Positions 1,120 to 52,935 of a stretch of DNA of 64,000 nt are shown here, piece by piece. Positions within the stretch are counted from its first letter, which is position 1; every line of letters begins with the position of its first letter. This stretch comes from Gordionus sp. m RMFG-2023 (lineage: Eukaryota > Nematomorpha > Gordioida > Chordodea > Parachordodidae): the NCBI RefSeq assembly GCF_954871325.1, contig NC_088775.1, positions 51,871,561 to 51,935,560 on the forward strand. Reading direction: 5' to 3'. Below the pieces are notes generated by a model. The model was not told where the DNA came from, ran no database searches, and was given only the letters and a program-made list of their open reading frames with translations. The position numbers and the translations under genes were made by a program.

Positions 1120-3330
1120 TTTATAATTAAAATTAGCTTTTAATAATAAAATTTTTTCTAAATTATCATCATTTAAACATCCGCGTCTTTCATTTAGAAC
1201 ATGTTTAGCTTTAAAGGTGTATTATATTCAATAAATATTTTTTTTAAATTAATATAAGTATTAAAAATATTCATGGAATCATCATTTGAATAAAATTTTT
1301 TTAACGGAACAAGCATTTTGTACAGTATTTTTCTCCCAAAAAGCATAAATGTCATCCATACATTCATTTGAGGTATCCGCATATGGTTGTTCCTGCATAT
1401 TTTCCAAATGGGCAACTAATCTTTCTTTTACCATCATATTTTGTGGCAGATTAATATAAGACCAATTAAGTTTAAATTTAGGGTGAATCATGGCTGCCAA
1501 AATGTTATGTTTTCATACAGCGAAGGAAATCTATATTATGAAATGATAATTAATTTATTATTAAATAAGTGTTCATTTTATTCATATAAATCAAATCAAG
1601 TATCTGCAAAACTTAACCCTTTTAAATTTTAACATCATTTGTATAGTATTTATTTATATTTGAGTCATATCATAAATATTGATTAAATGTAAACTTAATA
1701 CTTAATATACGAAGAAATTAACATTGTAATTTATTTACAAAGAATATTAATCAAAATATTAGCTTAAAATTCAAATAATCTAATAAATTTTTAATGTCTT
1801 CAAAGGCCCATTAATATTTTACTAGATATCAGAGGTTTAGTAGAACTGGCCTGTTAAAAATATTTTACTAAATTTGCCAGATCTTTGCAATTTTTTAATA
1901 TATTTTGCAGATATCTGATAATATAAAATAATTGCATAAAAAAATATTACCTTTTATCAATACCTCTAAGAACACTATCTACAAGGGGCTGACAATACCG
2001 CAGGCAGCTAAATTTCGTTAATTTATCTATCAATATCGATAGAACGGGAGTTAGATTTCCCTGCTCCATATTATCCTCCCGTTCCAAGATTTTTAACGAG
2101 ATCGCCAAAGGTTCCACAACCTATAAAATTTAAATTTATTTAGAGAAATCATTGTATTACTGTTGCATACTCTTTAACAAAAAAACATTCCTCTTGCCTA
2201 AATATTGCAAATCCAATTTGATCACATACTTGTTCTACTTCTGAAAACTTTTCAGAAAGCATCTTATCTATTAATTTCATGGATTGGTAATAAGAATTCC
2301 ATCTTGTCTTGTTGCGAGATATTAAATATCTTCCCAATTTCTCCAATAAAATATCCGCCATTTTTGACGACATATTTTGTTTATTAACTAAAGCAAAACA
2401 TTTTGCAAAAGTGGATCCAGATATTCATTTATAATTGAGATCACTATCTGCCATCTCCGCATCTGTTGTTGCAATAAGGTTAAGATTATGGCAACAACAA
2501 CGTTGATGTTTTGGTAGGCTGATAGTAGGAATAATTGGGTCATCAACGGATAATATGTCATCCAAATTTATAAATTCCATATCACTACTATCTTCTTCAT
2601 TCTCCAAAAACTCTAGAAAAAATAAATTTATTTAAATATTTTTTGCTAAATATAAATATTACTTAAATGCCTTGACAAAGTTGGTTCCATTGTCAGTCAC
2701 CATCTTCACCACCTTATCATGAATTTTATAGAACTTGTGGATGCCCATGATTTCGTTGGCCAAAACATCATATGTTTGCCTCCCAGTGATCCTCCTCAGT
2801 GCTAAAGCGGCTGACCTTCTCTCGAGGGTTAACAGACCCAGCCAATGTGCAGTAAGTCCAATAAAAGCCCTAATAAAATAAACATTATAAAATTCATATA
2901 AATATAATATACCTTCGATGACCACTCCAACAATCAGCAGTGGTGCAACATAAGAAACTTCAGACAAATCTCTTATAAGATTTGTCGTCATATAAGAGAA
3001 GGAAGTAGATATCCTGTGGCCCAGTGTTTGGCGAAAAATAATTTTTGTCGCATGAGGAAAAGTTTTAATCATTTTTTCAAGTTAAGGATCATCAACCAGA
3101 GACAGTGGTTGGAAGGTGTCAATAATAAAATCCATGATAACCTTGTCTGCTGTTTTTTGCGATACAGCTGGAATGTTTAGATTGTTAAAATTTAATTTAG
3201 ATTGTCTGGATTTGCAACCAGAACCACTTTGGTTTTGCAGTGATATATTTTTTTGTGTAGAGAATTCGTTGAGGTGTTTAATAATCTCATTTTTAAATTC
3301 ACTGTGCTTTTTCTTTATAAAAGAAAAAAA
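1120..3330 (-). pseudogene. hAT transposase body (RNase-H-like and dimerisation parts)
   Basis: Reading down the minus strand: QKTADKVIMDFIIDTFQPLS (about 3150), the VVKMVTDNGTNFVKAFK block (2659-2710), a HNLNLIATTD block (about 2470), KLGRYLISRNKTRWNSYYQS (about 2300), a region with LVDSVLRGIDKR (about 1990), PKFKLNWSYINLP (about 1470) and an RRGCLNDDNLEKILLLKAN C-terminus (about 1130-1190). This order is that of hAT transposases and matches the family at 58147-61594. Frames change repeatedly; some breaks look like small introns and others are decay. The PSSAPVERLFS-like core of the dimerisation region is missing. Confidence 0.8.
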
Positions 3331-3466
3331 TAGTATGTATCAAAGTTGGATGAAAATAACTTCTCCTGAATCAAATTTCATTTTTTAAATTTTATATGGA
3401 AATTTAAAGTAAAAAAAAACAATGTACAGGCTGAATGTAAAACCTATATAAACAAAAAAATGATAA

Positions 3467-3900
3467 AGGGTTCAACACAAATTTTGTTAAACATATTAAA
3501 GTATATTATTTAATTTATATATGGTTAAAAAATGTTAATATAGGTTATTTTAAATTTTAAGTAATATTGTCTTTGTCTATCATTATTAAAAGTTGCCCAA
3601 GATAATATGGGCTAAAGATTTTGATAAAATATTTTCCTATATATGAATATAATTAGCCTTTTTGGCATTTAAGAACTATGGATTAAGGGTTCAACAAATT
3701 TTGTTAAACATATTAAAGTATGTTTTATTAGTGGTTAAAAGGGGGTAGGTTATCTTAAAAATTTAAGTTTACAATATTGTCTATCATTATTAAAAGTTTC
3801 CCAAGATGATATGGGCCAAAGATTTTGAAAAGTATTCCTATTATGAATATAATGAGGCTTTTTGGCATTTAAGAACTTATGGATTGAGTCAAATGATACA
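3467..3900 (+). repeat. Tandem duplication, about 215-bp unit, two copies
   Basis: Two head-to-tail copies share landmarks in the same order: GGGTTCAACA, TTTTGTTAAACATATTAAAG, TATCATTATTAAAAGTT, CCCAAGAT, GATATGGGC and TTTTTGGCATTTAAGAACT. The first starts near 3467 and the second near 3685. Visible divergence is roughly 10-15 percent plus small indels. It lies in the presumed intron of the hAT, and no coding signal was seen in it. Confidence 0.75.
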
Positions 3901-22935: not shown

Positions 22936-23114
22936 ACAACCACGTTTTAGGCTGTGTCCTAAATATTATATATAATAATTAAATTTATTAATTTTGAAGA
23001 ATAAAATAACATAAGATATTTATAATGTAAAAATAAAATGTTCTTTTAAATCATTTTTCGTCATTTATTAAAATTTATTTTTGAAATATTAGAAATAAAT
23101 AAATTTTTTAAAAT

Positions 23115-25260
23115 TTTATTTGAATTTTACTATTTTTATAAATAAAAAAATGCAACATAGATGGTGTTATATTAAAAATTATTTATAATATATAATTTTT
23201 AATAAAAATATGAATAGTATTGTGATTAAAAAATCAATTGAGTATAACCAAGAATGATGTCCTGGGGCGATATATAAGCCGTCAGCCCATACAAATATGA
23301 TTTTATTAGGACGCTAATTGTAAAATAAACATATTTTAAAATTTTATACACTAACAATATAAAAATAAATACCTCTTATTTTAATCTTATCTCATTTTGT
23401 GCTTATTAATAGAATTTCTTGAGACGATAATTTGTAGGTACGTCCTGTCACTGTAATAGGATCTACTATTGTTATTATTTGATTAATGGGTAACCATATC
23501 TTTTCCGCAATTGAAGGCTAAAAGAAGGATGGTGATGGTCCATGGGAATGTAAAAAGGAAATATATATCTCCTCAGTAATTTCATTCTTTTCTAGTACTG
23601 TGGCTAACCACCAAAAATCGTCATAAGCACATGTTACGAATCCTTTAATATCGGCAAAAGACAAATTATCGGCATTTGAGATATTGTTAATTTGAAAGTC
23701 CTCTGCATATGAATATATTTTTGATTTAAGTTTACTTAAACTTAAAGGAAATATAGCATGTATTTCCCGAGTTCCTGGAATGGGACTAGCGAAATTAAAT
23801 CTTTCTCGTAGTTTAATCTCTTGTAAATTGTATGGTTCGTTGGTTATATACGTAAAATTTACTGATGGCATGTTTTGTTTTGCAAATTGATATAAATCAA
23901 CTGGCATTAAAATGTGTCCAGAACTGATGCGCTGAAGGCTTGAACGTGCTGCTAATATTTTTAATGTTCCGCCAAGGCCATAACATGGACCTTTTCCATG
24001 GGATGAAGCTGAAAAATGCCATTCAGTTGCTACAAAATCTGATTCATGATATCACAGATTTATAAAAAAATTTCTGTTTTTATATTGCGCAGCTGATCCG
24101 TCAGAGCAGTAATATATTTTATTTGACTTTTTGCTGAATTGATTGGTTAAAAATTTTATCATTTTAGTCTGGTATAAATGTACTGCAATAACATTATGTT
24201 GAAGTGACTCTTATATTACCACATAATTAAGGTTTTCTATATTGCCATTATTATTATATGCTATCATAGGATGGATAGTGGCTTGATTATTATTCCAGTG
24301 GAATCCTTGAACAGCGTCTTGGATTATAAATGCATAATTTTCAGAGAATCACAAATTATCATAAATACATTTGGTTGTAAAAAATGTTTAAGTTTTGAAA
24401 TATATGATGATTGATTGGTAGCGATGATAGGAATAAAAAAAATAAAATAAGCTGATAAAATCGTTATTTTCAAATAATAACGATAGTAGATCCACAACAA
24501 TGAAAGGATATATCTACAAATTATGGCCTTAGGAATTTCTATTAATAAGCGCAAAATTATAATAGTTTGAATATAAAATTTTAAAATATGTTTATTTTAC
24601 AATATAGCGTCAATAAAATAATATCTGTATGAGCTGCCTGCTTATATATCGCCCCAGGACATCATTCTTGGTTATACTCAATTGATTTTTTAATTTTAAT
24701 CATAATACTATACATATTTTTATTAAAAATTCTATATTATAAAAAATTTAATATAACGCCATCTATATTGCATTTTTTATTTATAAAAATAATATAAATT
24801 CAAATAAAATTAAAAAAACAAAAACAAAAATGGCTATCGAGATTTTTTATTAAATCGTTTAATATAAAGGTAATAACATTTTTAGTGAATATTAACACCC
24901 AAAAAAAATCCCTTCCTAACAATGTTAATTTTTTATTTAAATAAGATAACACCTGTAATTTTTTAATTTATTTTTTATATTTTCCAACGTAAAATTTTAA
25001 GGGCTATAAATTGATATATAATTTGTAACTATCTTAAGTATTTTTTAAAATAACAAGATTTAATGAAATCTCGCATTTCGCGATTTTCGTCTTTGAAGGC
25101 GTATATCTTTGGATCTGGTTGAGCTATCACTCTAAAATTTAAATTATTAACATTTACAACATAAATAACTAACATGCCAAGTTTCATTCATTTTTGAGAT
25201 GGTCGGCCGAAAATCTCGTTTTTTGGTCGATTTAACGTGGAATCAATCACCCATATCCAA
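23115..25260 (-). mobile_element. Family X transposon relic, copy a
   Basis: Holds a C-terminal transposase-like frame bracketed by inverted repeats of about 200 bp (23120-23330 and 24625-24815). These share AATGCA(A)CATAGATGG, TTTTTAATAAAAATATG, AATCAATTGAGTATAACC and ATGATGTCCTGGGGCGAT. To the right, 25085-25260 matches the right end of the larger X copy (44822-44965): TTTGGATCTGGTTGA, ACTCTAAAATTT, ACATAAATAACTAACATGC, GATGGTCGGCCGA. The N-terminal half of the gene is absent. Confidence 0.7.
23518..24365 (-). pseudogene. Family X transposase-like protein, C-terminal half (copy a)
   Basis: From about 24345 downward: IIQDAVQGFHWNNNQATIHP, YYCSDGSAAQYKNRNFFINL, ATEWHFSASSHGKGPCYGLG and GGTLKILAARSSLQR. 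A 129-codon frame (23518-23907) then ends with CAYDDFWWLATVLEKN and FLHSHGPSPSFF. This order of motifs recurs in uncharacterised proteins of insects, cnidarians and other animals (from memory, not searched). Asp and Glu in conserved positions suggest a DDE-type transposase, which is inference. Two in-frame stops (about 24340 and 24055) and a break near 24210 show it is dead. Confidence 0.65.
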
Positions 25261-26088: not shown

Positions 26089-26379
26089 ATTATAACTAAT
26101 AAAATATTACCTACCAATTCTGAACAGCGGCTGACATACGGGCCTCTAAAGGTCCATAAAAAGAGGCATTTTTGACAAATTGTTTAATTTTAGATATCTT
26201 TGGATAGAATTTTTATATTAAATATATAAATATAGATATTGAGAAAAGCCTTTTTAAAAAAATCTTATTCCATTTTATGTTTATTAAATAAATTTTCTGA
26301 TCGAGTATTTTATAATTATCCTCATCTACATATATAATTTATCAATATTATGACTATCAACTTCTGAATATAATTTTCT

Positions 26380-27500
26380 TTTAATTTTATTCAAACCCAA
26401 AGGAATTATCATGTGCATTTTTTGAATTTCGGGAATTGCGGGAGCTTGTCTGAATTGTTCTTACACTTCATATCTTCTACATTATATTTTCCATTAGTCT
26501 CATATGTAATTAATAGCTAACATAATTTCTTTAACAAAATTATATAAATCAATCGATTTTATAATTTGCCCAGAAATGGGCTGGAACGTGGAACCAATCT
26601 TTTTAATGTGCCTCCAAGACATGATGTTGCTGTCCGATTCACGAAAACATAGACTTATAAAGTTTTTCTTTTATATTGTGCGGCTGTCATCAGTACATTA
26701 ATATATTTTGCTAAGTTTGTGGCCAAATATATCAGTCAAAAAATTTATTATTCAATTGTGATACAAATGAACAGCAATAATGTCATGATAATGCAATTAT
26801 GAACGATGTAATTAATATTTTGTACTTTAACAACATTATTATTATAAACTACCATAGAATGGATTGTCGCTATATAATTATTCCAATGGAATCCTTCAGC
26901 AGTATCTTGGATCACCAAAGAATTATTTTCCGAAAAGCCACATTATCAATATATTTATATTTCGAACATATAAAAAAATGTCTGAAAATGGGTCAAATAG
27001 ATTTACAAACTCTTCAGCCGGTTTTGTGTTTTCAGTATGTTCTCGAAGTTATAAAAAAATGTCTGAAAATGGGTGCAATTTTTTCTGTAAAAAGATTTAC
27101 AAACTCTTCAGCCGGTTTTATGTTTTCAGGGTGGTCCTATCAACAGATGCTCATTATTATAATGTTATATGATCTATATCCTTTCTTTAAATTTATATTT
27201 ATAGTTGTTTTGAATTGAAAACTTACTGGGGGAATAATCGCATTCACCCAAATAGCAACTATAGAGTGATGGGTTGCATATATTTTTTGCTAATATATTT
27301 TATAATGGCTCACCCTGTTTAGTTGTTAATTTTTCAAGGTTACCATCGATATACATCAACTTTAAATTTTGATGTATTGCACAGACACATGAGTTCTGCT
27401 AGATCCAGCTAATACTTAATTTTTTGCATAAATCCGGGTTTCAAAAAGCTGACTTTTATATTAAGATACACTTCTTTAAATCCTTTCAAATTATTTGGAA
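26380..27500 (-). mobile_element. Family X relic, copy b
   Basis: Noisy but collinear with copy a on the same strand: ATTATTCCAATGGAATCCTTCAGCAG-like text (about 26878, compare 24290), ATATTGTGCGGCTG (about 26673, compare 24084) and AATTTGCCCAGAA (about 26563, compare 23907). No frame is open over any length. No ends were identified. Confidence 0.6.
26967..27135 (+). repeat. Tandem duplication, about 80-bp unit
   Basis: TATAAAAAAATGTCTGAAAA, GATTTACAAACTCTTCAGCC and GGTTTTRTGTTTTCAG occur twice in succession with an insertion in the second unit. It lies in X copy b. Confidence 0.85.
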
Positions 27501-30579: not shown

Positions 30580-32777
30580 TTTACAAAATCAGAACCAATA
30601 TTTTAATGAATGTATGTAAAAGGAAAAGACGCACCCCGCTAATACCTTCCCCAGGTCCACAGGATCATTTAAAAATTAAATTTAGAATATTAAAATAACA
30701 TAATGATTGTCAATATTTTTATATATGATAAAATGGAGATTTTTTTATCATTTAGAATTTATATTAAGTCTGAACAATATAAAAAAAGTTATTCGTGAAA
30801 ATGTAAAATTTAAAAAAGTTACTTTGGGTATGTTGAAACTTAAATTTGCATTTAAAATTTTTCATGAGCAATTTTGTCCGAAACAATTTTGGATCTACTT
30901 AAGCACCTTATTATAATACATATTTGGCTTAAATTACAAATCTTAAACTTTATTAATTTTTAAATTATTTGAGAAGGAAATACTTACCCCGGGAACACAC
31001 TATCCCCGGTCTCCCCTATAAATAAATTTAGCAGTACCTATTCAAAAAATAAAAAAATACAAGATATCATTAACCTGGAAAATAGGGGTTATACCATGTT
31101 AAATGAGCAAGAAAACCAAGATTTTCGGCCGATCCCTTTCAATTTCTATAAAAAGTTGTAAGCTGGTTATATATGTTCGCATTAAATCATAAACAAAATT
31201 CAAGATCATTAACAACTATATGGAGATAATCGAGGTTAAAGGTCTAAAAATCATCTTTTTTAGCTTTGATGTTAAATGATTAGTTTTTAATTTTAAACTA
31301 AATTAGATGAATACTGAATCTAATATTAATATATTAGGTCAATAATTGAAAATTTTTGTGAAAAAATCAAATTTTTTTTTTTTAAAAATATAAGTCATCT
31401 TATGGTCAGTAGAAAATTTGAAATTAATATTTCGAAATGAATATGATCTCCAATTTTTAATTTTTTAAGAAATATTATTCGTTTAGTATTTTTTTAATAA
31501 TTTCTTCAGCAATTAGCATGGCTGGATATTTATTTAAAAAAAATATTGCGAATTTTATACTCTAAAAAATAGATGTTTCTATATATAATAGTTTTAATAT
31601 GATAAAAGTCATTTTAAATTGCTTACAACTCATGTATAACATATCATGCAAAATTGATTATATAATTTGTAAACCTCATTCCCCTGAGATATTTGCAGGA
31701 TATAAATTTTTAATAGTTTTTTTTGTTTAAATGTAAAGTGAAAATAATTAAAAAATCTGACTAGCACACGAATAAAAAGTAGGCTTAAAGAAGTACAATA
31801 AAATTATTAAGGGAAAAATCGAAAATCACATTTATAACCAGGCCTAAGATTCTTTTATGGAATTGTCATAATCTTAAATTAATAAAAAAACCAAATCAAC
31901 AAAATTTAAGTTTTTTTCGAAGGTCAATTTTTTTTGCTAAAAATTTATGATTTCAATTTGATTTTTTTTAATCAATATATATAACTAAAAATTTACTTTA
32001 TAAAATTTTGGTTATCAAATGAATTTGAGCAAAAAAGATTTCTATGATCAATGTCTTTGAATTTTGAGCAAATGTTAAACACTGAAAAAAATATTAAAAT
32101 AAAAGTCAGTTGTTTTTTTAAAAAAATAAGCTGATTAAATAAATCGTGAAAACCCTAATCAATAAATCGCAGTTGCTAAAAATATTAATTGATTACTTTA
32201 ATATTTTTTCGCAAATTCTAAAAAAATAATATTAATTTATTTAACATTTTTCTTAAATTTTTTTAAAAATTAATTTTATATTTTTACATGCCTTTAAAAA
32301 TAAAGAAATTTTTATAAATGAAACCTTTATAAGATAAGCTAAGGTGTATTGTGAATAAACCAAAACATAAAAATTTTAAAAAGAATTTATATCCTGTACT
32401 ACCTTAGATACTTAGTATAAATAGCGATTTATATATTCAGGAAAAAATATGTAATACGTGCCTCCACCAGTTAAGTAAATTTGGCTAAGACATTCCTGAA
32501 GAATTTATATTTCCAATGACCTATAATCAGGAGTAGAGGTCTGCATTGGGCGCGATTTCGGCCTCTAAGTGGGCAAGCAAATGGGCGGGTAAAATTTTTT
32601 TGAGAATTGGCAAGCGGGTGGGCGAGTTAAGAAATTTAAACAATGGGCGGGCGGGTTATGGAAATTTAAAATTTTTGTTCAAAAACAAACTAAAGAAAAA
32701 TCATAATTAATTAAATGATCAATAACAATATTTCTTTTTTTATTGTACCAATCGTTTTTTTAAGTGAAGAACACTAC

Positions 32778-33000
32778 TAGTGTTGTTAAACGGCTCAATT
32801 TCAGCCGATTTTTAAATACGGCTAACTCAATATTTTAAATAGAAAAATATTTCATAAGCCTCGGAATTTCACTAATAAATGTCTAAATGTTTGTGCTATC
32901 TATGAGCGAAGTCGTTAGGCTTGCATAAAATTTTTATGGATAAAATATCGAGTTAGCCGTTTTTAAAAATCGGCTCAAATCGAGCCATTTAACAACACTA
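32778..33000 (+). mobile_element. hAT MITE, TAGTGTTG family, 223 bp
   Basis: Duplication AACACTAC (32770-32777 and 33001-33008), exact. Terminal repeats TAGTGTTGTTAAACGGCTC / GAGCCATTTAACAACACTA extend inward as imperfect inverted repeats of about 60 bp. Noncoding. Confidence 0.93.
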
Positions 33001-33039
33001 AACACTACTATTTTTTCGACATCTTTATTTTTCCCAACA

Positions 33040-33880
33040 TATATAATGTCTCGTAATGGATTTAATTGTTGTACCCGGATGTCCCGTATGCAATATATGC
33101 AAAACTCTTTTTTGAAGTGAGTACGGAATGATTAATCTGCCATTTCAAAATAAAATACCGTCATCATTTTCTATTTCATCTATTCTTGTTCTAAAAGCTT
33201 GTAATTCTGGTGCTTGATTTTGTATATTTGTACCATTTCTTTTCTTGATAGAGTTAATGTGTCATAAGTAAGGTTTCTTATATATTTTACTGTTTTATTT
33301 TCACTTGTTATTCTACATTTTTCTCTATGGGTTTCGCGATAAAGCATCTGCAATTATATTATTAGCGCCATTCTTGTACATTATATTATAATCATATGCA
33401 GATAATTTATAAGCCCAACGTAATAATCTTTGGTTTGTTAATGAGCTTAAATCTCTGTTATTACCATATATCTTTATTAAAGGTTTGTGGTCTGTTCAAA
33501 TTTTAAATTTTCGTCCATACAAATAGTTATGAGATTTTTCTACGCTGTTTATTATTACTTTTGCTTCTTTGTCTATTGTAGAATAATTCATTTCAGCGTC
33601 TTGTAAAGTTCTTGAGGTGTAAGCTAGGAAATTCGTTACCATTATCATATTTTTGCATGAATACAGCTCCAAATCCTTGGTTATATGCATCTGTTTCTAA
33701 TATTAACTCGAGGTCTGGTTTATAAAACTGTATAGTAATTTGTTCTGTTACTATTCCTAATAGCATGAAACGATTACGAAAATAGCACGATATTTTATTT
33801 TGGAATGACAGATTAATCTTCGTACTCACTTCAAAAAAGAGTTTTACATATATTTCATACGGGACATCCGGATCTCACTT
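33040..33880 (-). mobile_element. Gypsy fragment (RNase H region) inside the hAT
   Basis: The minus strand shows ELILETDAYNQGFGAVFMQK (about 33690), a KEAKVIINSVEKSHNYLYG stretch (about 33540) and the flank leading to an H2C2 region (about 33070). No LTRs. Edges 33071-33165 and 33791-33875 are inverted copies of one another (CGGATGTCCCGTATG, GAGTACG landmarks), so the fragment was captured or rearranged rather than inserted whole. Fossil; broken. Confidence 0.7.
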
Positions 33881-34105
33881 GCAGGAAGAGGATATACTTC
33901 AGACGAATATCCTACTTTGGTGGAAACGACAAGAGATTTGACAAAGCTATCAAGACTAGCAATAAAAATTTTGGCAATTCCTGCAACTAGTGCTTCTGAA
34001 CGAGGATTTAGCATTGCTGGAAGGTTTTTAGAACAAAGAAGAACGTGTTTGAATCCAGAAAATGTCGATTCATTATTATCTTTGCATTATAATTACATAT
34101 AATAT
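33880..34105 (+). pseudogene. hAT transposase C-terminal dimerisation domain
   Basis: LVETTRDLTKLSRLAIKILA followed by IPATSASERGFSIAGRFLEQ and RRTCLNPENVDSLLSL is the classical hAT dimerisation region, ending at a stop at 34102. It is the only coding part left of the element at 32534-34428. Confidence 0.88.
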
Positions 34106-35566
34106 CAATTTTATATTTATTTCATAAATATTCAGTTTGATCAAATAAATTGTTCAAAATTTAAATGAATATTTTTTTTATGCTTAATTTAATTTCCTAA
34201 ATTATAAACTTTTTGTAGAGGTGTAATGCTCAAATATTTTTATTAGATGCTTAAAAAATTGAAAGAATGGCCATTATTAAATTTTATAAGTGGACTTGGG
34301 TTAAAATTTTTTATAAATAATGGGCGGGCGGGTAAAAAATTTTAGACTAATGGGCGGGCGGGTTAAATTTTTTTAAAACATTGGGTGGTCGGGCTTTAGT
34401 CCAAAAACCCGCCCCATTCAGACCTCTAATCAGGAGGCCTTTGAATCTATTCATGAAACATTACACAATATTTGAGAATCACCTTTAAAGGAAAACGTTT
34501 AATGAAGAAAAAAAATATCCTAAAAATAAAATTTATAAGATTGAAAAAGCAATAAAGAGTAAAGTTTGAGAAATATCTGATTCCGAGAAGGATAATCCAA
34601 TTAAAGATGAAAATTCTTATTATATTAAAGGATATCTTTGATAAATTATCAACAATATTAAATTCTTACAATTTTGCCACAAAGATAGAGGTCAATAAAA
34701 TTCAAAAGGAATTAAACGTGACATACCTGGCAAGAAATATGATGGTCAAAGAAACTGGAATTCTCTCATTCTCATAACATAAGGCAGGAAAGACACTAAA
34801 CAAAATTTTAATTTGTCAAGGATTTTTAAAGTTCTGATGAAATAAGCTAACTCATACCTGGAATAAAAGATGTTGCATTTGTTAAAGGCGAGAAATAACC
34901 AGACCAAAAAAGACTAATATTGAATAATCTTAAAGAGACATTCAAGATGTTTAAAGAATAATACCCATATATATCAATTGGATTCTCTAAATTTGGCGAA
35001 CTTAGGCCCTAAAACTGTATTTTAGTTGGAGCTAGTGGCACACAGTGTTCAGAATGTGAAATTAATGCTAATGTATTAGCTGAAATCACAGCGGAGAAAA
35101 TTACTGTATAAATTCTTTATCTTTTGTTGACGCAAATTATTTGTAATCCCTCTCAGTCAGTTTAAACAAATTGTGATCAATGCCTTAGTATAAAATATCT
35201 TATTTATATCAATCAGAGAAATCGTGTAGAATATGTCACTTTTAAATAATGGATCACGGTGGATAGAGCAAATTTTGAAAAAATTATAAAGTCCGTTGAT
35301 AATTTTTCTATTGGAAAAAGTTCAAATTTTACTTCACTCGTTTATAACTAAACAGCAAACTTTTGAAGAGCTCCAAAGAAAATTTAAAAGATGGTGAATT
35401 TTTAACAATTATAGATTATTCTAAAAATTATTCATATATTTTACAAGATGAAGTGTAAGGATTTCACTGGAACAACGTGCAAGCTACTATACTTCCATTT
35501 GTGGCCTATTATAAATCTGGAGAAGATTTAAAAATATTAGTTTTGTTATCTTTTTAAATTATATTA

Positions 35567-36959
35567 TAGGGTATCCCATTCAAAAAAGGAAAAGTCCCAA
35601 TCAAAAAAGGAAAAGGGTCAATCATAAAAGGAAAAAGTTCAATCAAAAAAGAAAAAGTGTTAATCAAAAAAGGAAAAGTTCCAACCCATTCATGAAAGAA
35701 AATATTTTTTTCTTGTCAATTTTTCTTAAATTTTTATTTATTATATTATTCCTTCTTATTTTATTTCTAAATTTTTGTGATTTCTTTACTTTATTTTTTC
35801 TTATTATCTTTTCTCAGTTTATTTTTCTTCTCATTTTTTTTGATTCTTTTGTCTTTTTAATAATAATTTGTGCATTTTCCCTGTTATTTTTATCTTTACA
35901 CAATTTTTTAAACAATTTTTTCCTTTTTACATCATACATATTTATATTTTTATCTTTTACATTAATTTCTAAGTCTTTTCTCAATTTAATTTTCTTCTCA
36001 TTTTTGATAATTCTTTTTTGTAATTTTTAATTGTCACAGTTTTTATTTCTCAATGGCAGACAATAAAATTTTAAATAATAATTTAAAAATGATTATATTT
36101 TAGTAATTTACATATCGTTTGGTATTACAGTTCAAACTATTTAATTTTAAAAAGGTTCATTATAACCAAACGATTAATTTAATTCAGCAATTGTAATTAA
36201 ATAATTTGATATGTAAAAAATTCTAATAAATAAATATCTGCCATTAAGTAATAAAAATTAAGTGAAAATTAAAAATAATTACAAAAAAGAATTATTAAAA
36301 ATAAGAAGAAAAAAAAATTAAGAAAAGATCAGAAAAATAAAAATTAAAAATGACTTAAAGAGATTGGAAAAATTAGAAATATATGTAAAAGAATACAATA
36401 TAAGGAGAAAAAATCATAAAAAGTCAAAATATTGATATGTATGATGAAAAAAAGGAAAGAATTGTTTAAAAAATGGTGTAGAGGTGAAGAAAAATAACGG
36501 AAAATTTTTAAGTTATTTTTAAAAAGACAAAAGAATTATCAAAAATGAGAAGAAAAATAAATTGAGAAAAGATATAGAATTAAGTAAATAAATCGAAAAA
36601 GGTTAGAAATAAAATAAGAAGGAATACTAAAAATAAATAAAAATTTAAGAAAAATTGACAATAAAAAAAATTTAAAAAATAATGATTTTCCTTTTTTAAA
36701 CAAGAATTTTCCTTTTTTGATTGACACTTTCCTTTTTTCTTTGACACTTTTCCTTTTTTGATAACCTTATCCTTTTTTGTTCGACACTTTTCCTTTTTTG
36801 TTCGGACCTTTTCTTTTTATGATTGACCCTTTTTTCCTTTTTTGTTCGAATTTTCCTTTTTTGTTCGGACCTTTTCCTTTTTTGATCGTACATTTTCCTT
36901 TTATGATTGAAATTTTTCCTTTTTTAAGGACTTTTCCTTTTTTGAATGGGAAACCCTGT
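35567..36959. mobile_element. Foldback element, 1.4 kb, with 19-bp-scale repeats at both ends
   Basis: The two halves are inverted copies of one another around about 36150. The left end, GGGTATCCCATTCAAAAAAGG, and the right end, CCTTTTTTGAATGGGAAACCC, pair. Both ends carry runs of AAAAAAGGAAAAG units with short spacers (35575-35690 and 36690-36945). Further in, TTGTCAATTTTTCTTAAATT (about 35714) pairs with its complement near 36640. TA lies at each edge, so a mariner-type MITE is possible. No protein is credible; long Lys/Gln-rich or Phe-rich frames come from the repeats. Confidence 0.85.
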
Positions 36960-38577
36960 ATCTGTTTTATATATTGTTTTGCGGCTTATAAATCAATTTA
37001 AATTATCGTTAAATGTAAAAGTTAAATAATGGAAAATTAAAGATTACAATTATAAATTAGTATATATTAATTTAATTGAAAATTTATATAATATTAATAA
37101 TTTAAGTAAGGGAAAATTTGTGAATTCTTCATCTAAAAAGTAGCATTAACTTTGCTTTGGCCTGTACATCTTTATTCGCGTTTTTGTTTTTGTCATTAAT
37201 TTTTGCTGTCTGTTATCGCTTGAGATCCAAGTTCCTTTTTAGCGCCAACGTTATAATTGTGAACAAAATAGTCTAAGCCTACTATGCACAGGGGTTTCCA
37301 TCATTGAAAGTATAAAACTGAGATGATTACACTTAATTATGTTTAGGGCCAACCTTTGACGTAATTAATATCCATCGTTGAGATCCTCACTCCTAGTAAA
37401 GATCCGATGCCCTAGGTCTTTAAAAGATGCCAGGGCATGATAGCCGAACGATGTTTAAGTAATGATGATATATGGTAGAAATGCATAGTTGGCAGGTAGC
37501 GATGGCGAATATTAAGCGATTTTTTTTCCTCGGCGTCCAATAGAGCATCCCTATTTATATTGGAAGGGGCTAGAGAATCTATATGAGATCCCATGTTCGG
37601 AATTCCCCCCTTTTCCAGATGGTTGAACTATCAGGTAATGACAAAGAATACAGTGATAGGGTATCACCATATCGCAAATGAGTCTAAGACCAATGGCATG
37701 ACGTAGCTCATCGTTGCTTACGAGCTGGTTAAGATTTCGCAATGGAAAGCCTCGAGCTGCGGAAATTCCTCGGGTTGGCTCCTCTATTTAAAGTATGCAA
37801 CGGAGTTGACAACTAGAGGCTTATCCCAGTCCTTCTATAGTGCCGATGAGGCAAGATCGATTAATGAGAGAAATTTCCAGAGATCAATTGCCTGCAGAAG
37901 CAAGGGGTCAGGATGTTTTGTGAGTGTGTGTATGATTGGCTCGTAAGATAGGCAAGAGTACATGAACGCACTAACGGAAAGTAGTGAGGGTGACCTTATA
38001 CCAATGTCAGGCGCGTACGCAGGAATTTGGTCTGGGAGGGGATAATAAAATTTTTTAAGAAATATTATTGTTTTTTAAAAATATCAAGCATAAATTTATT
38101 AGAACTAATAGCTATTTCTAATACACAATTTTAAATTAATGTGAATTATAAAAAAATTATATATATAAATCATCATATAAAAAACTATAAAATAAATGTG
38201 AATTAAAAAATATTAAACGGATATAACTGGCGGTATAGAAAAACTATAAAATAAATGTGAATTATAAAATATAAAGTGAATATATCCACTATATGAATTA
38301 TTTAAATGACCCAAAATAGAAATTTGAATTTTTTGAGCCTTTAAAATTTATATAAATAAAAAATTTAAATGTTGGAAATATAAATTAATACACAAAATGT
38401 TTCTTAGGAATAATTGTATTTTATATGTTATATATTTATATGTAAAATCCAATCTTCGTTGGGATTGAGCTAATTTTTCAATTATCTCATCCTTGCTTGT
38501 GTCAAATGCCTATGAATATTCAAAATATTCAAACCTTTCAATCTACTTTCAGAAGTTGTACTTCTTGGTATGTTTTT

Positions 38578-38936
38578 CAGAGACCTGCAGACCCGGCCCC
38601 TGGACAGGACCGTATTTTAATTTTTTAAATATACCCGGGCCTGGCCCGATTTTTTTAAAAAAAACATCCGGGCGAGGCCTGAATTTTTTTTAAAAAAAAT
38701 ATCCGGGGCCGGGTTGTATATTTTAAAACAGCATATATTTGAAATCGTTATTATTAGCTAACAAAATCAAAAAGAAATATAATTTATTATAAAAAAATCC
38801 GGGCCGGGCCTGAAAATTTTATTTAAAAAAAGCCGGGGAGGGCTTAAAGATTTTTTTAAAAACCCGAACCGGGCCGTTAAAATTTTTTAAAAAAAATCCG
38901 GGCCATGGCCTGCAAATGGTACCTCTGCAGGGCTCT
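38578..38936 (+). mobile_element. Small hAT-like MITE with GGCCCGG repeats
   Basis: Ends CAGAGACCTGCAGA and TCTGCAGGGCTCTG form imperfect inverted repeats. The interior alternates GGGCCTGGCCCG-type motifs with A/T runs. The flanking 8-mers do not match well, so the duplication has decayed. Confidence 0.7.
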
Positions 38937-38999
38937 GTTATTCTTAAAAATGAGAATGTTCTCTCATTAGTTTACTAATGGGAAGAGTTGCTAATATAT

Positions 39000-39840
39000 A
39001 TAAACCCTTTTAAAACATTGGGAATATAATTTAAATGTGTTTGATATGCAAGGCATCCATAGCATTTTTGGGACTATATCAACCATAGTTAATTTTATAA
39101 ATATAGTTATTCAGCTAATAAGGCATCATAAGATACTTAACATCTTCATGATAAAAATCTAACAAAATTATATTTTTTCTATCACCATCTGAAAAAGGTT
39201 GGTAAGGCTTTTATGGAAGTAATATCTGAGATAAGTGCTGCATGATGAATTAAAATAATTCATTTATTTGGGTTATAAATGTATCTAAGAGAGGAGACAT
39301 TTGTTTTATAATACTCTTCTACTCATCCTATATTAATGTTTTAACGATGAGCTTGCCTTGCTGCAAGTCGAAGGATACAAATATTAAACACATATAGCTC
39401 TGCTTTTGACTCAACAATAACATATAAAATATGAAATTCTTCATCAACATTAGCCCTAATTTCCTTGAGTTCTAATAAAATGCTCTCCGCTATTCTCATC
39501 TTCTTAATCAAGTCAATGTCATGTTTTTGAAAAGTATTACTGTAGTTGTATAATTAAATAATACATTATAATGAGAAAAAAAAATTGGAATAAGCATTGA
39601 ATCCAATAATTTTATTGCTTCTGAGGAAATATTTCTTTCAGGCCATTGTGATATTTCAGTAATAGCAAATAATCGGCTCTTCTAACTCCATGAAAGCTGT
39701 TACTGCTTGAAGCTTGCAATTTCTTTCTCCCTGTTCGACAAGGAATTTCAGAAACAATTATTATTTGACTAGAAATTTGAAAATGGTAGATTATTACGCC
39801 ACTAAAAATTTGAAAATAATAAGTAAATATCACGCCGGAA
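39000..39840 (-). pseudogene. hAT transposase remnant
   Basis: The minus strand reads IRLAARQAHR-like text near 39350-39390, preceded by KKMRIAESILLELKEIRANV (about 39440-39500). These resemble the C-terminal part of hAT transposases of the DUF4371 type. Frames are broken throughout. Confidence 0.5.
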
Positions 39841-41127
39841 AACTTGAAATCGAAATTAATTGATAAAATAACTTAGTAGATGAATGTGATAAATAAATGT
39901 AATTAAATATTTAATATGAGATAGGAATAAATATTAACAAATATAAATTAATATAAACAATAATATTTTTGATAAATATATCCGACTACTGCATTTTTTG
40001 GCTGGGAGGGGTTTGTCCCCTTACCCTTCCCCCCCCGCTGCGTACGCGCCTGACCAATGCTACCGGATTTATTTGGTAAGGTAACCTGTAACCAAGATAG
40101 ATCGTCAAATTTAAGTTTGAGTATATCTTCTGTGAGGCGTTTAATCTCGAGCTCATACGCAGCGAGGATGACATCGTATTGGAAGAATAGTCACGATAGC
40201 AGTGTATATAAAATTCTTAGAATTAGAAGGTAGTTCTTCAATAGGAAGAAATCCTGGTGGGCTTGTCAATATAAGAATCGCAAAAATTTTCTATAAATAT
40301 GCCTTCATAAATACGATTTTAATATTCCTGCCGAATGACTTTTCTTCGGCAGCAAAAATGCGTATGACGGGATAGGAGGAATTGTCAAAAGATTAATTGC
40401 CAGATCTTCAAAGGCCATACAAAAATTAATCCTAACCCCATTAGAATTATATAATTATGTAAAAGAAAATATTAATGGAATTCTTGAAAATATATCAAAT
40501 CTAGTATACATCGAAGGGGAATTAGCCCTTCGTAAAAGATTTAATTCTGCAATCCCACATGGGACCCAAAAAATATATCAAAATAGACTAAACACAAATA
40601 TATCAAATTTCAAAAAAACTAGCATAAATCAAGTTTCGTTTTTAAATGAGGAAATTATATAAAATATTAATGGATATGCAACATGTATATATGATGATAG
40701 AGGTGGTTAGGATTTATAATCGGAAAAATGATACAAATGAAGTAAAAACCCGATTTTTACACCCTTGTGGACCTTCAGCCTCATTTAGATTACCTTTGAC
40801 TAGACCTGTGCGCCGCCGGCAATTTTATTCACGCCGGAACAGCCGCCGATTGAGATCAGCGGCGTGAGCCGGCTAGCCGCCGATTTTTCTTATGGGGGCG
40901 GCACGGCGTGTATAATATTTAGAATGTTGTTTAATTATATTTATATATTACATATTATATTTAAATATGAATATTAACATTAATATAATAAAACATGAAT
41001 TGTATTCTATTGCTTTATATAATAGAATAGTGTATATCATTTAAATTCATTCATTAATTATTTTTATGGATTTGTGCGTTTTAAACCACCCTATATACAA
41101 TTATGAAATAACAACTCTCTACTAATC

Positions 41128-43911
41128 AAAAATCAAGTTATGTGTGGAAGTACTTTGGAAATCTTATTTTGAAGAATGAGAATAAGAAAAGCACGATAAT
41201 GCCTGATTATATTTATTGTGAACCTTGTTTAAAATTGGGGAAAAAAGATGAGGAAGATTCGGATAAAAATAATCCATTTTCACAGTAATTTATTTTAATT
41301 TTAGACTTATATTTATATATAATTTATATTTTAGTTATGATATCAAATGTTATAGCAAAAATATAAGTACGAGTAACCTTTTTCGTCACTTAATTAATGT
41401 GCATAAAATATCAGAAAAAACTAATAATAATAAATCCATTCAAACTCTAAAAATGTTTCTAAAGCCAACGCCAACATGTAGCAAGAATATAAAAGATAAA
41501 AAATGGCTCTTAGGTTAGTATTAATGTTTATTAATATTCATTTTAAATTTTTAAATGGTTTGTTAAATTAATTTTATTAAGCTCTATTTGTTCAAAACAA
41601 CTAAATTTTTTAGTTTGTTTTGTCAGCTCTTATTTTGAGAACTTTTTAATGTACAAACTTAATATATAATTTATTAAAATAATTATGTAAAACTTTAAAA
41701 CAACTAAATTTTTAGTTTGTTTATTGTCAGCTCTATTTTGAGATCCTTTTAATGCATAATTTAAATTTATTAAAATAATTATGTAAAACTTTAAAACAAC
41801 TAAATTTCTAGTTTGTTTATTGTCAGCTCTACTTTGAGATCCTTTTAATGTATAAACTTAATATATAATTTAAATTTATTAAAATAATTATGTAAAACTT
41901 TAAAACAACTAAATTTTTAGTTTGTTTATTGTCAGCTCTATTTTGAGAACTTTTTAATGTACAAACTTAATATATAATTTATTAAAATAATTATGTAAAA
42001 CTTTAAAACACTAATTTTTTAGTTTGTTTATTGTCAGCTCTATTTTGAGATCTTTTTAATGAATAAACTAAAAATATATTTTATTAAATTATGTAAAACT
42101 TTATTTTGAAAGTTCAAAACTAAATCAAATTTTTTATTTGTTTCTCTTTTTTAAATATCTTTTTTCTAATAGGGCGAAATTATGTTTTGATGTGCTGCTT
42201 AGATTTATTGCCATTTGATTCTATTAGCAATAATGGGATGACAGATTTTCTAAAGGTTTAAAATTTAAATAAAATGATTATTAAAAAATAAATTGCCTAA
42301 AAAAATAGAAATATAAGATAATTGATTCCTCATCAGAATTGCCTAATAGGACAACTATTAGTCGGGGAGCACTTGATGATGTTTATTGTTCTATAAAGGC
42401 ACATGTTTTAAACCTGATTGATTCTGGTCCAAAATTCTGTTCCATTACTTTTGATTTATGGACCGATCATTTCAAGCGGCGAAATTATATTACATTTAGT
42501 CTTCATCATTTAGATGAAAATTTTGATTTAGAATATTTTACCCTGGCAACCCGAAATGTGACTCAAAAGCATACTGGGGAAACCATATTATCGGAGATTG
42601 ATGGTATCGAAGAGGAGTTTCATTTAAAAGCCAAAATAATACAAATGGTAACTGATGCAGGGGCAAATGTCAAAAGAAGCGTCAGATTGGGGGATTATGA
42701 GCATCATTTATGCTTAGGCCATGGATTACATAATTTGGTTACAGTTGATGGCATAAAAAAAGTTGCCAGAATTGATAATCTCCTTAAAAAAATTAGAGAA
42801 ATTATTTCAGCCCTCAGATATCGAGTAGCTGATTTGGAATGTGAAATTGAAGATGAGCATCTTAAATGTCTCCAATCAATTTATGAGACAGGTCATATCT
42901 TGGATATTGATGATTCTGATCCATACCTTATCATTTTGATAACGAAGCGGATAATAGAAATGTCATTACACCAACCAATCTATATAATACAAAAACGTTA
43001 AAATTAAATTGCCCTACCCACTGGCACAGCATATTAATTATGCTAGAAAGTGTTCGTAGCGTGAACAAAAATCCTATTAATAATGTTTTGAATAAAATAG
43101 GAAAACAATGGTTAAAACTTTTTAATAATGAATGGGATATGATTGACGAGCTTTATGCCGTATTAATTCCATTCCGAGAGTCGGTGGAATTTCTTTCCTC
43201 CCAAAAGGGATCGACTATAAATCTAGGGTTATTATTTCGCAGTGAAATAGAAACCCACATACAGATCAATATATCTGATTCCTCAGATATTATTTGTTTA
43301 AAAGAAAATATGCAAAAAAAGCTTGACCATAGGTTTCTAATTACTGAACTTCAAGTTATTTTATATTTTTATTAATAAAATTATATTTTGAACATTAGAT
43401 ATTAGCGACTCTCCTTGATCCCAGATTTCAAAATCTGAAAATTGTGTCAGAATATTTTAATTCAAATTCTACTACATCATTGCAATTTTTAACAAGACAT
43501 TTAAAACTTTTAGAAAATGATAAAAATGCACAAAGTGAAATCCAAGTTGAAGATAATGGGGAGACTTCCAGTTCTTATATCGCCAAAATAGCTCGTAAAC
43601 ATTCCATTCCAGGCAGTGATTATAACAATATAAGTAATTTAGAACAAGAATGCCATATTTTGCTAAGCCAAAATAATATCTCAGAAGAGGATGCATTAAC
43701 CTTTTGGAAGAAAAAGCAACTGGAACTTCCTAGGCTTGCTAATTTAGCTAGGAAGGTTCTTTGTATACCTGCAACCAGTACACCCAGCGAAAGAATTTTT
43801 TCCATTGCTGGATTAATACTCAATGCAAAAAGGACTTCTTTATGTCCCACCAATCTTGATAAAATTCTATTTATTCATGATAATTATAATTTAGCTAAAT
43901 CTGAATTCTAA
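41128..43911 (+). pseudogene. BED-hAT transposase gene with introns
   Basis: The first recognised exon (to 41284) has YVWKYFGNLILKNE and CEPCLKLG. A 50-bp intron (41285-41334) joins in frame to ISTSNLFRHLINVHK, completing a BED finger. A 660-bp intron (41513-42172) then joins in frame to YVLMCCLDLLPFD. A further exon from about 42336 has LPNRTTISRGALDDVY, CSITFDLWTDHFKRRNYITF, KIIQMVTDAGANVKRS and CLGHGLHNLV. Near 42940 one frameshift precedes TLKLNCPTHWHSILIMLES. An intron at 43354-43402 leads to ILATLLDPRFQNL, and the dimerisation domain LCIPATSTPSERIFSIAG ends at 43911. The start codon was not identified: a stop lies just upstream in frame, so an earlier exon is likely. Confidence 0.85.
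41594..42105 (+). repeat. Minisatellite in a hAT intron, unit about 100-110 bp, five copies
   Basis: Five head-to-tail units each carry AAAACAACTAAATTTTTAG, TTTGTTTATTGTCAGCTCTA, TTTTGAGATCCTTTTTAATG and TTATTAAAATAATTATGTAA, at about 41595, 41696, 41791, 41901 and 42004. All lie inside the 660-bp intron, so the intron grew by tandem duplication. Confidence 0.9.
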
Positions 43912-45145
43912 TTTATTATATTTCTTACTTAATATTTTGTTTGCATTCCAAATATATATTTGTTATAATAAAAATCAATAGAATATTACTAATATGTGTT
44001 GTTTATGTGACTCTGATCTGAGTGAAAATGCAATTTCTTAGTCTATTTCTGAGAATGAGAAAATACATGAATTTAAATGAAGTGAGACAGGAAATAATTT
44101 AAGAAATAAACTATGTTAACAATGTGTTAGAAAAGAGCGCCAAATTATAAAAAAATGTAATACATTGATTTATAAATTAAATTTATTAAAAATTTTTTTA
44201 AATAAATATCGCGCCGCCACCGGCGACAATTTAGTAGGCGGCGGCGAAATCCGCGCGCCGCCGAACGCCGATAAAAAATTAAAAAAAACCGCCGCCGTCA
44301 ATTGAGACATCGGCGCACAGGTCTACCTTTGACAGATGATGTTTTAGTTTTTCTCAAATCTCATAATGCTGGTTAATCCTTCTATTCCCACCGGTTGAAC
44401 ATATATTATCTCCTGAAGAAATCTTACAAGCTAGCCAGGCTTTGTATTCCTTTAGATATAGTAAGATTTAATTAATTTATAAACTCTCTTAAAGGCAAAA
44501 TTTGGGAAGATTTCAATGATATATACATTAAAATATATTTAAGCAACAAAAAAATGAATTTTAACATATTAAAACTATTTTATTTAGCGCCATCTATTTT
44601 TTAAAGTATAAAAATAACAATATTTTTTTAAATAAATATCCAGCTATGCTAATTATTGAAGAAATTATTAAAAAATATAGCAAAAAATTAAAAATTGAAT
44701 ATCATATTCATTTCGAAATATTAATTAAAAAAATTAATTTTGATGTTTTTGCCATAATTATCAATTATTGACTTAGCTATTAATATTAGATTCAATATTC
44801 TATCTTATTTAGTTTTAAATTAAGGCATATACCTTTGGATCTGGTTGAACTAGCACTCTAAAATTTTGATTTTCTTAACATTTACAACATAAATAACTAA
44901 CATGCAAAGTTTCATTCATTTTTGAGATGGTCGGCCGAATCGGTCGATTTGTCATGGAATTACCCATTAATAAAAAGCAAAAAAAGACGATTTTTCCACC
45001 TTTAAACCCGATTATCTCCGTTAACCAATGGGCTAAAAATTTTTTTAAGATATGTGAATATATAACCAGCCTACAATTTATCTAAATCGAAAAGGGTCGG
45101 TCAAAAGATGGTTGATTTGAAATGGAATGACTTAAATACGGAATC

Positions 45146-52537: not shown

Positions 52538-52935
52538 CCATTCCATGTCATATCAATCAAAAAAGGTACATTTTCCGTCGACCCCTTTTGTAATTGTTTA
52601 AAATTGCTGCAATAATTTAAATAGGTGAAAAATTAAGAAAACCTTAAATAATAACTCGCTACATTTAGTTCACGAGATTCAGAGCCTCAATTGCGAAAAA
52701 CGAAGAATTTCGCACCTTTAAAATTTTAAAATTGCTTTTATTTCAAAAACTTTTTAAGGCATTAATTCTATTAAAATGAATTTAAATAAAAGAGAATACA
52801 TCGTTCAGGCAGATTTTTCTTTGTGATTCAAGATGAAATACTAGGATTTCACGGGACTAACCGCATACCATGTATCCTTTTGTGATTTATTACAAGACAT
52901 ATAATAATTTAAATCATTTATATTATATAACTTTT
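52538..52935 (+). mobile_element. Family X, internally deleted copy
   Basis: Starts GGGCCATTCCATGTCATATC, the clearest X end in the window. About 280 bp later it enters the core motif FFVIQDEILGFHGTNR (52828-52875), a decayed form of the QDEVQGFHWNN motif seen in other X copies. Confidence 0.6.

Follow-up and report, generated by a model that had tools for sequence, protein, structure and literature searches.

The window analysed here, a 64,000-nucleotide stretch of the nematomorph Gordionus sp. m RMFG-2023 (contig NC_088775.1, positions 51,871,561 to 51,935,560), has a G+C content of 28% and carries several pieces of a transposase-like gene family, here called X. The largest arrangement, a 14-kb nest at 31086..45133 (+), is a single old and shattered copy of an X transposon. 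It represents a whole element of subfamily A, opening with GGGTTATACC and closing with GGAATGACTT, and is colinear with the genomic copies L061, L063 and L064 as well as with the full-length copies L090 and L093. Aligned to L090, the nest follows in order as 31422-32532 (L090 1-1089, 74% identity), 34427-35549 (1081-2280, 83%), 40266-40794 (2410-2988, 82%), 44338-44823 (2996-3609, 70%) and 44965-45100 (3625-3775). The genomic copies are uninterrupted at the positions where the nest is broken. An earlier note, made from the letters of this DNA, had proposed that one X gene is split across the nest, and the colinearity with L090 bears this out.

The left long inverted arm occupies 31086..31660 (+); 31122-31660 is 81-83% identical to the opposite arm of L061, L063 and L064, and matches of the window to complete copies start at 31079-31086. 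It is followed by the interior and the coding start at 31661..32533 (+), whose N-terminal part is recognised by DNA colinearity only. Here the element is interrupted by a hAT-like insertion (32534..34428) with the ends TAGAGGTCTG and an 8-bp duplication, ATCAGGAG, at 32526-32533 and 34429-34436; L090 is continuous across the site, and its positions 1081-1089 are common to both sides. This insertion probably holds a further insert. A region at ~33075-33871 within it is bounded by an inverted 51-bp repeat, and its open frames are, judged by eye, what we take to be a retrotransposon polymerase. The coding region resumes at 34437..35549 (+) with the helix-turn-helix region, a Cys-rich region, the first catalytic Asp (DYSKNYS) and GFHWNN, and tblastn pieces fall there too. 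Across the following mixed insert block (35550..40265) the alignment passes from L090 2280 to 2410, so that the nest copy is dead, having lost ~130 bp including the second catalytic Asp motif. The next coding piece, from the third Asp (NAYDGIGG) to the C-terminal region, lies at 40266..40800 (+) and is followed by a hAT transposon (40801..44325) with the GC-rich ends TAGACCTGTGCGCCG and an 8-bp duplication, CCTTTGAC, at 40793-40800 and 44326-44333; L061 884-890 is matched from both of its sides. The C-terminal end of the coding region and subsequent non-coding DNA are found at 44334..44515 (+).

The right long inverted arm (44516..45133, +) matches the arms of genomic copies at 44516-44823 and 44965-45131. 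Inverted arms had been reported for the long copy, and 31287-31615 indeed aligns with 44823-44551 at 72%, the alignment extending towards both ends. Inserted in the right arm alone is a 147-bp terminal piece of subfamily B (44822..44968), 93% identical to the extreme end of the element in L066 and absent from the left arm. This unit was present at 40/40 scored genome places, the window included (best 40 of 955 candidates), and the places seen in that search include five large contigs. The view of the ~145-bp repeat of the right arm as an unrelated repeat was rejected: the repeat is the end of an element from a sister subfamily, and that subfamily carries X as well.

The inserts of the nest display features of their own. 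An inverted-repeat element at ~35569-36953 in the mixed block has ends read as GGGTATCCCATTCAAAAAAGG, which hold repeated 'AAAAAAGGAAAAG' units, and is flanked by TATA and TGTA, a hint of a 4-bp duplication; it may be of the same kind as X. Inverted sequences around GCGCGTACGC at 38005-38045 and 39980-40065, likewise in the mixed block, may be the two ends of another single insert. Within the hAT transposon at 40801-44325, the open frames that lie between 42309 and 43911 do not all share one frame, and ~100-bp units form a tandem array at 41591-42143.

The landmark motifs of X are present where they had been placed by the earlier note. A motif scan of the window found GFSKFGELRP (34980-35009), GASGTQ (35028-35045), SKNYS (35420-35434) and GFHWNN (35459-35476) on the + strand, and SDGSAAQYKN, EWHF, SHGKG and YDDFWW at 24105-23608 on the - strand. 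The six X sites claimed for the window are also recovered, five by tblastn with eight relatives as queries (24348-23383 and 27389-26329 on the - strand, 34824-35563, 40261-40816 and, weakly, 52761-52929 on the + strand) and the sixth, at ~44330-44475, by DNA colinearity with genomic copies. Outside the nest these sites correspond to a second copy of X, of subfamily B, at 23104..25245 (-), with one end present and the other truncated, in which 23387-25245 matches the L066 element at 89% and 24348-23383 is coding; to a third, old and fragmentary copy at 26329..27389 (-, best tblastn E 1e-17); and to a fourth, small and weak fragment at the first Asp motif at 52761..52929 (+, E 1e-4 to 0.04). An Rfam scan of the window at gathering cut-offs gave no match, nor did a plasmid search with 34900-35520.

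The mobility of X is best seen in its copies elsewhere in the genome, which comprises 287 Mb in 267 contigs. Three DNA queries were run against it, namely the window arm, a stretch of arm containing the end unit, and coding DNA for the N-terminus; they returned 311, 955 and 188 first-look candidates, respectively, of which the best 40 each were scored. Both ends could be read in 28 copies (four of six long stretches, L062 and L065 being those in which no end pair was found, 17 of 20, and seven of nine tried). X copies have the fixed ends GGGTYATTCCATG at unrelated sites, and a perfect 4-bp target duplication is present in 26 of the 28. The earlier note had guessed a duplication of 4-5 bp and had asked whether copies might lack consistent ends and duplications; 4 bp is the length found, and such a lack is not what the copies display. 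When the ends were recounted under a looser pattern the figure was 25/28, because a second right end was taken in L037, whose single right end under the stricter reading has TAAA on both sides; in this recount lengths of 5 to 8 matched in 0/28, length 2 in 6/28 and length 3 in 2/28, shifted positions in 0-2 of 28 copies and re-dealt flanks in 1.6 on average. The duplicated tetramers are mostly A/T and follow no fixed motif.

Empty sites point in the same direction. The joined flanks of L043 match 40/40 scored places over all 240 bases, and the two places that were read for this empty site carry TATT once. L043 is inserted in a repeat that we read as gypsy-like from its flank. At L112 and L113 there is a young repeat, likewise read as gypsy-like, for which 40 scored places (best 40 of 397 candidates) are 95-99% identical to the 240-base query.

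Five copies measure 4.15-4.30 kb and the remaining ones 2.4-3.5 kb. Arm length is 582-595 bp in L061, L063 and L064 (91-95% identity) and 651 bp in L066 (79%). When left and right arm are compared within L090 and within L091, 43-50 of every 50 columns agree from column 51 to 550, and only 38/50 and 33/50 in the outermost stretch, which indicates that left and right termini differ slightly. The genome contains many near-identical copies of X, and their copying is recent: 27 of 29 arm-A loci have a nearest relative that is 98.2-99.9% identical when gaps are left out of the count (L039 and L057 are without one), in a set of best-scoring matches that is biased towards similar copies.

Element ends were associated with X coding DNA in 28/29 and 24/29 loci, compared with 0/58 in shuffled sets. 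Where the frames of copies were inspected, the coding DNA is broken or shortened. The longest X frames reach 256 amino acids among 86 loci, many of them partial, and 503 amino acids in L095, which is without the N-terminus. One frame break is common to L090, L091, L093 and L094, which implies that broken X copies have multiplied.

Full-length relatives of the X transposase have ~780 amino acids. X forms a large animal protein family in which no named domain was found, with members in rotifers, insects, starfish and hagfish. In scans of X proteins nothing passed the Pfam cut-offs, NCBIfam gave no match, and no PDB match was significant, the sequence-profile search there returning two chance matches only (E 0.35 and 0.73). 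The earlier suggestion of an under-described group is therefore fair as regards the protein, and the Pfam search recommended there gave nothing above cut-off. Tudor_4 appears in 3/39 members below its cut-off (best E 0.00099), a hint only, and other weak Pfam matches were discounted as scattered and below cut-off. Pfam DUF7869 presumably shares a GHxK..CD motif with X. Nine pattern matches in viral contigs included no relatives of X, and literature searches yielded no useful account of Cc8L18.2, of aphid transposons with long terminal inverted repeats, of KDZ or of domesticated Sola and, with the terminal sequence of X, only two unrelated papers. Three Asp residues are conserved in 37/39 and 44/45 sequences, with the spacing D-81-D-40-D in P0030, and the predicted models contain an RNase-H-fold, integrase-like core with a structural match; an RNase-H fold with three acidic residues, which the earlier note had proposed to look for, is thus predicted. 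The match of the core to retroviral integrases and the Mos1/mariner transposase is one of fold only. VIA-align covers the families in its lists and barely the N-terminal domains, and those of its rows which extend into the C-terminal domain show root-mean-square deviations of 14-19 and were not counted as a match for that domain. Weak Foldseek matches include TnsB, Hermes, RAG1 and the P-element transposase, beside unrelated folds.

We interpret X, with very high confidence, as a cut-and-paste DNA transposon that is moved by its own DDD transposase, and the nest as a full-length copy since broken. The element combines long inverted arms and a 4-bp duplication with a gene for a DDE/D-type transposase, as the earlier note had guessed. 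The X transposase would bind the long inverted ends, probably via its N-terminal zinc-finger and helix-turn-helix region, and the integrase-like RNase-H core with its three Asp would excise the element. Joining to the target with a 4-bp stagger, and subsequent repair, would produce the 4-bp duplication that is observed. A putative SH3/Tudor-like domain at the C-terminus might contact DNA or chromatin. Shortened or frame-broken near-identical copies have probably multiplied in trans by means of enzyme made elsewhere. In the window, insertion of a full-length copy would have been followed by two hAT-type insertions, by the mixed insert block and by decay.

Several observations weigh against this interpretation. 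L040 and L051 are without a duplication, and an intact transposase frame was not found in the copies examined. Foldseek alone retrieved nothing from the PDB at E 1e-3 or better, the best match being TnsB at 1.2e-3. With the termini of the other copies the flanks of the nest read ATAG and AAAT, and its right end is decayed (GACTT for GACCC); the AATA described earlier at both ends does not hold as stated, and is obtained by shifting each end by one base. The 4-bp duplication of the X family is established on other copies, and that of the window copy is uncertain, because AATA/AATA requires shifted ends. The copies compared are, moreover, the best matches of longer lists, and the survey of copies is incomplete.

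The examined copies are broken, hence something acts on them in trans, and it is conceivable that the X protein is a passenger of an element whose ends are served by another transposase. We consider this very unlikely, as no other frame of at least 100 amino acids was found beside X in nine coding-region loci (the outermost arms were not reached), the X core has a predicted integrase fold with three conserved Asp, and the X family is large in animals. That X is a host gene family duplicated by chance together with flanking repeats, a reading to which the annotation of relatives as host proteins in several animals lends some appearance, is contradicted by exact ends, 4-bp duplications and empty sites, and we reject it, and chance likewise, as next to impossible.

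X probably represents a new family within the known Sola superfamily (Sola1, 2 or 3), with the same mechanism. Sola elements are described, in the excerpt of PMC10741241, as having DDD transposases, 4-bp duplications, sizes of mostly 2-9 kb and inverted ends of 11-1124 bp, in organisms including metazoans. X agrees in each of these features by description, with its DDD transposase, 4-bp duplication, 2.4-4.3 kb and ends of ~590 bp, a likeness of anatomy to a published account. Sola groups are also reported among insect miniature inverted-repeat transposable elements (excerpt of PMC5199201), and a family so common in animals would hardly have been missed by Repbase; the assignment is probable because of this expectation and the fitting anatomy. 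The AWWT target preference given for dictyostelid Sola2 (excerpt of PMC3627910), by contrast, fits only 6/26 X duplications. Less likely, by a good measure, X is a DDD superfamily that is unnamed in Repbase or Dfam. Such a superfamily might tentatively be characterised by an integrase-like core with Asp as the third catalytic residue, by a zinc finger and helix-turn-helix at the N-terminus and by a further Cys-rich domain, to which a C-terminal Tudor/SH3-like domain may be added. The database results above would suit it, as would the named relatives among the matches listed, which are uncharacterized, unnamed, hypothetical or "Cc8L18.2-like". However, the anatomy fits Sola, and the absence of a Pfam model says little.

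These results connect a large animal protein family that lacks a Pfam model with precise transposon ends, empty sites, a duplication of 4 bp and a predicted integrase-like fold. Annotators could thereby reassign to transposons thousands of entries that gene lists now carry as "uncharacterized proteins", and structural study of the X transposase has a definite place to begin. Should the family be absent from transposon libraries, one superfamily is added; if X is Sola, a predicted structure for the Sola transposase is supplied.

Among other known systems, Kolobok shares with X a DDD/E transposase, a 4-bp duplication and termini beginning with two purines, but its duplication is TTAA (excerpt of PMC9587614). 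TTAA, the duplication of Kolobok and piggyBac, occurs in 0/26 X duplications. hAT elements likewise have an RNase-H-type transposase, that of Hermes being among the weak Foldseek matches, but differ in their 8-bp duplications, which are seen in the two hAT-type insertions of the nest and in 0/28 X copies. The 2-bp TA duplication of Tc1/mariner elements is not that of X, which duplicates 4 bp, in most cases without TA at the centre. Integrases have Glu as the third catalytic residue. Retroviral integrases and Mos1/mariner resemble X in fold only, at 7-13% sequence identity, and differ from it in its Asp rather than Glu at this position and in their other N-terminal domains. With fixed inverted ends, a duplication of fixed length and a predicted RNase-H fold with three Asp, X displays the general features of DDD/E transposons.
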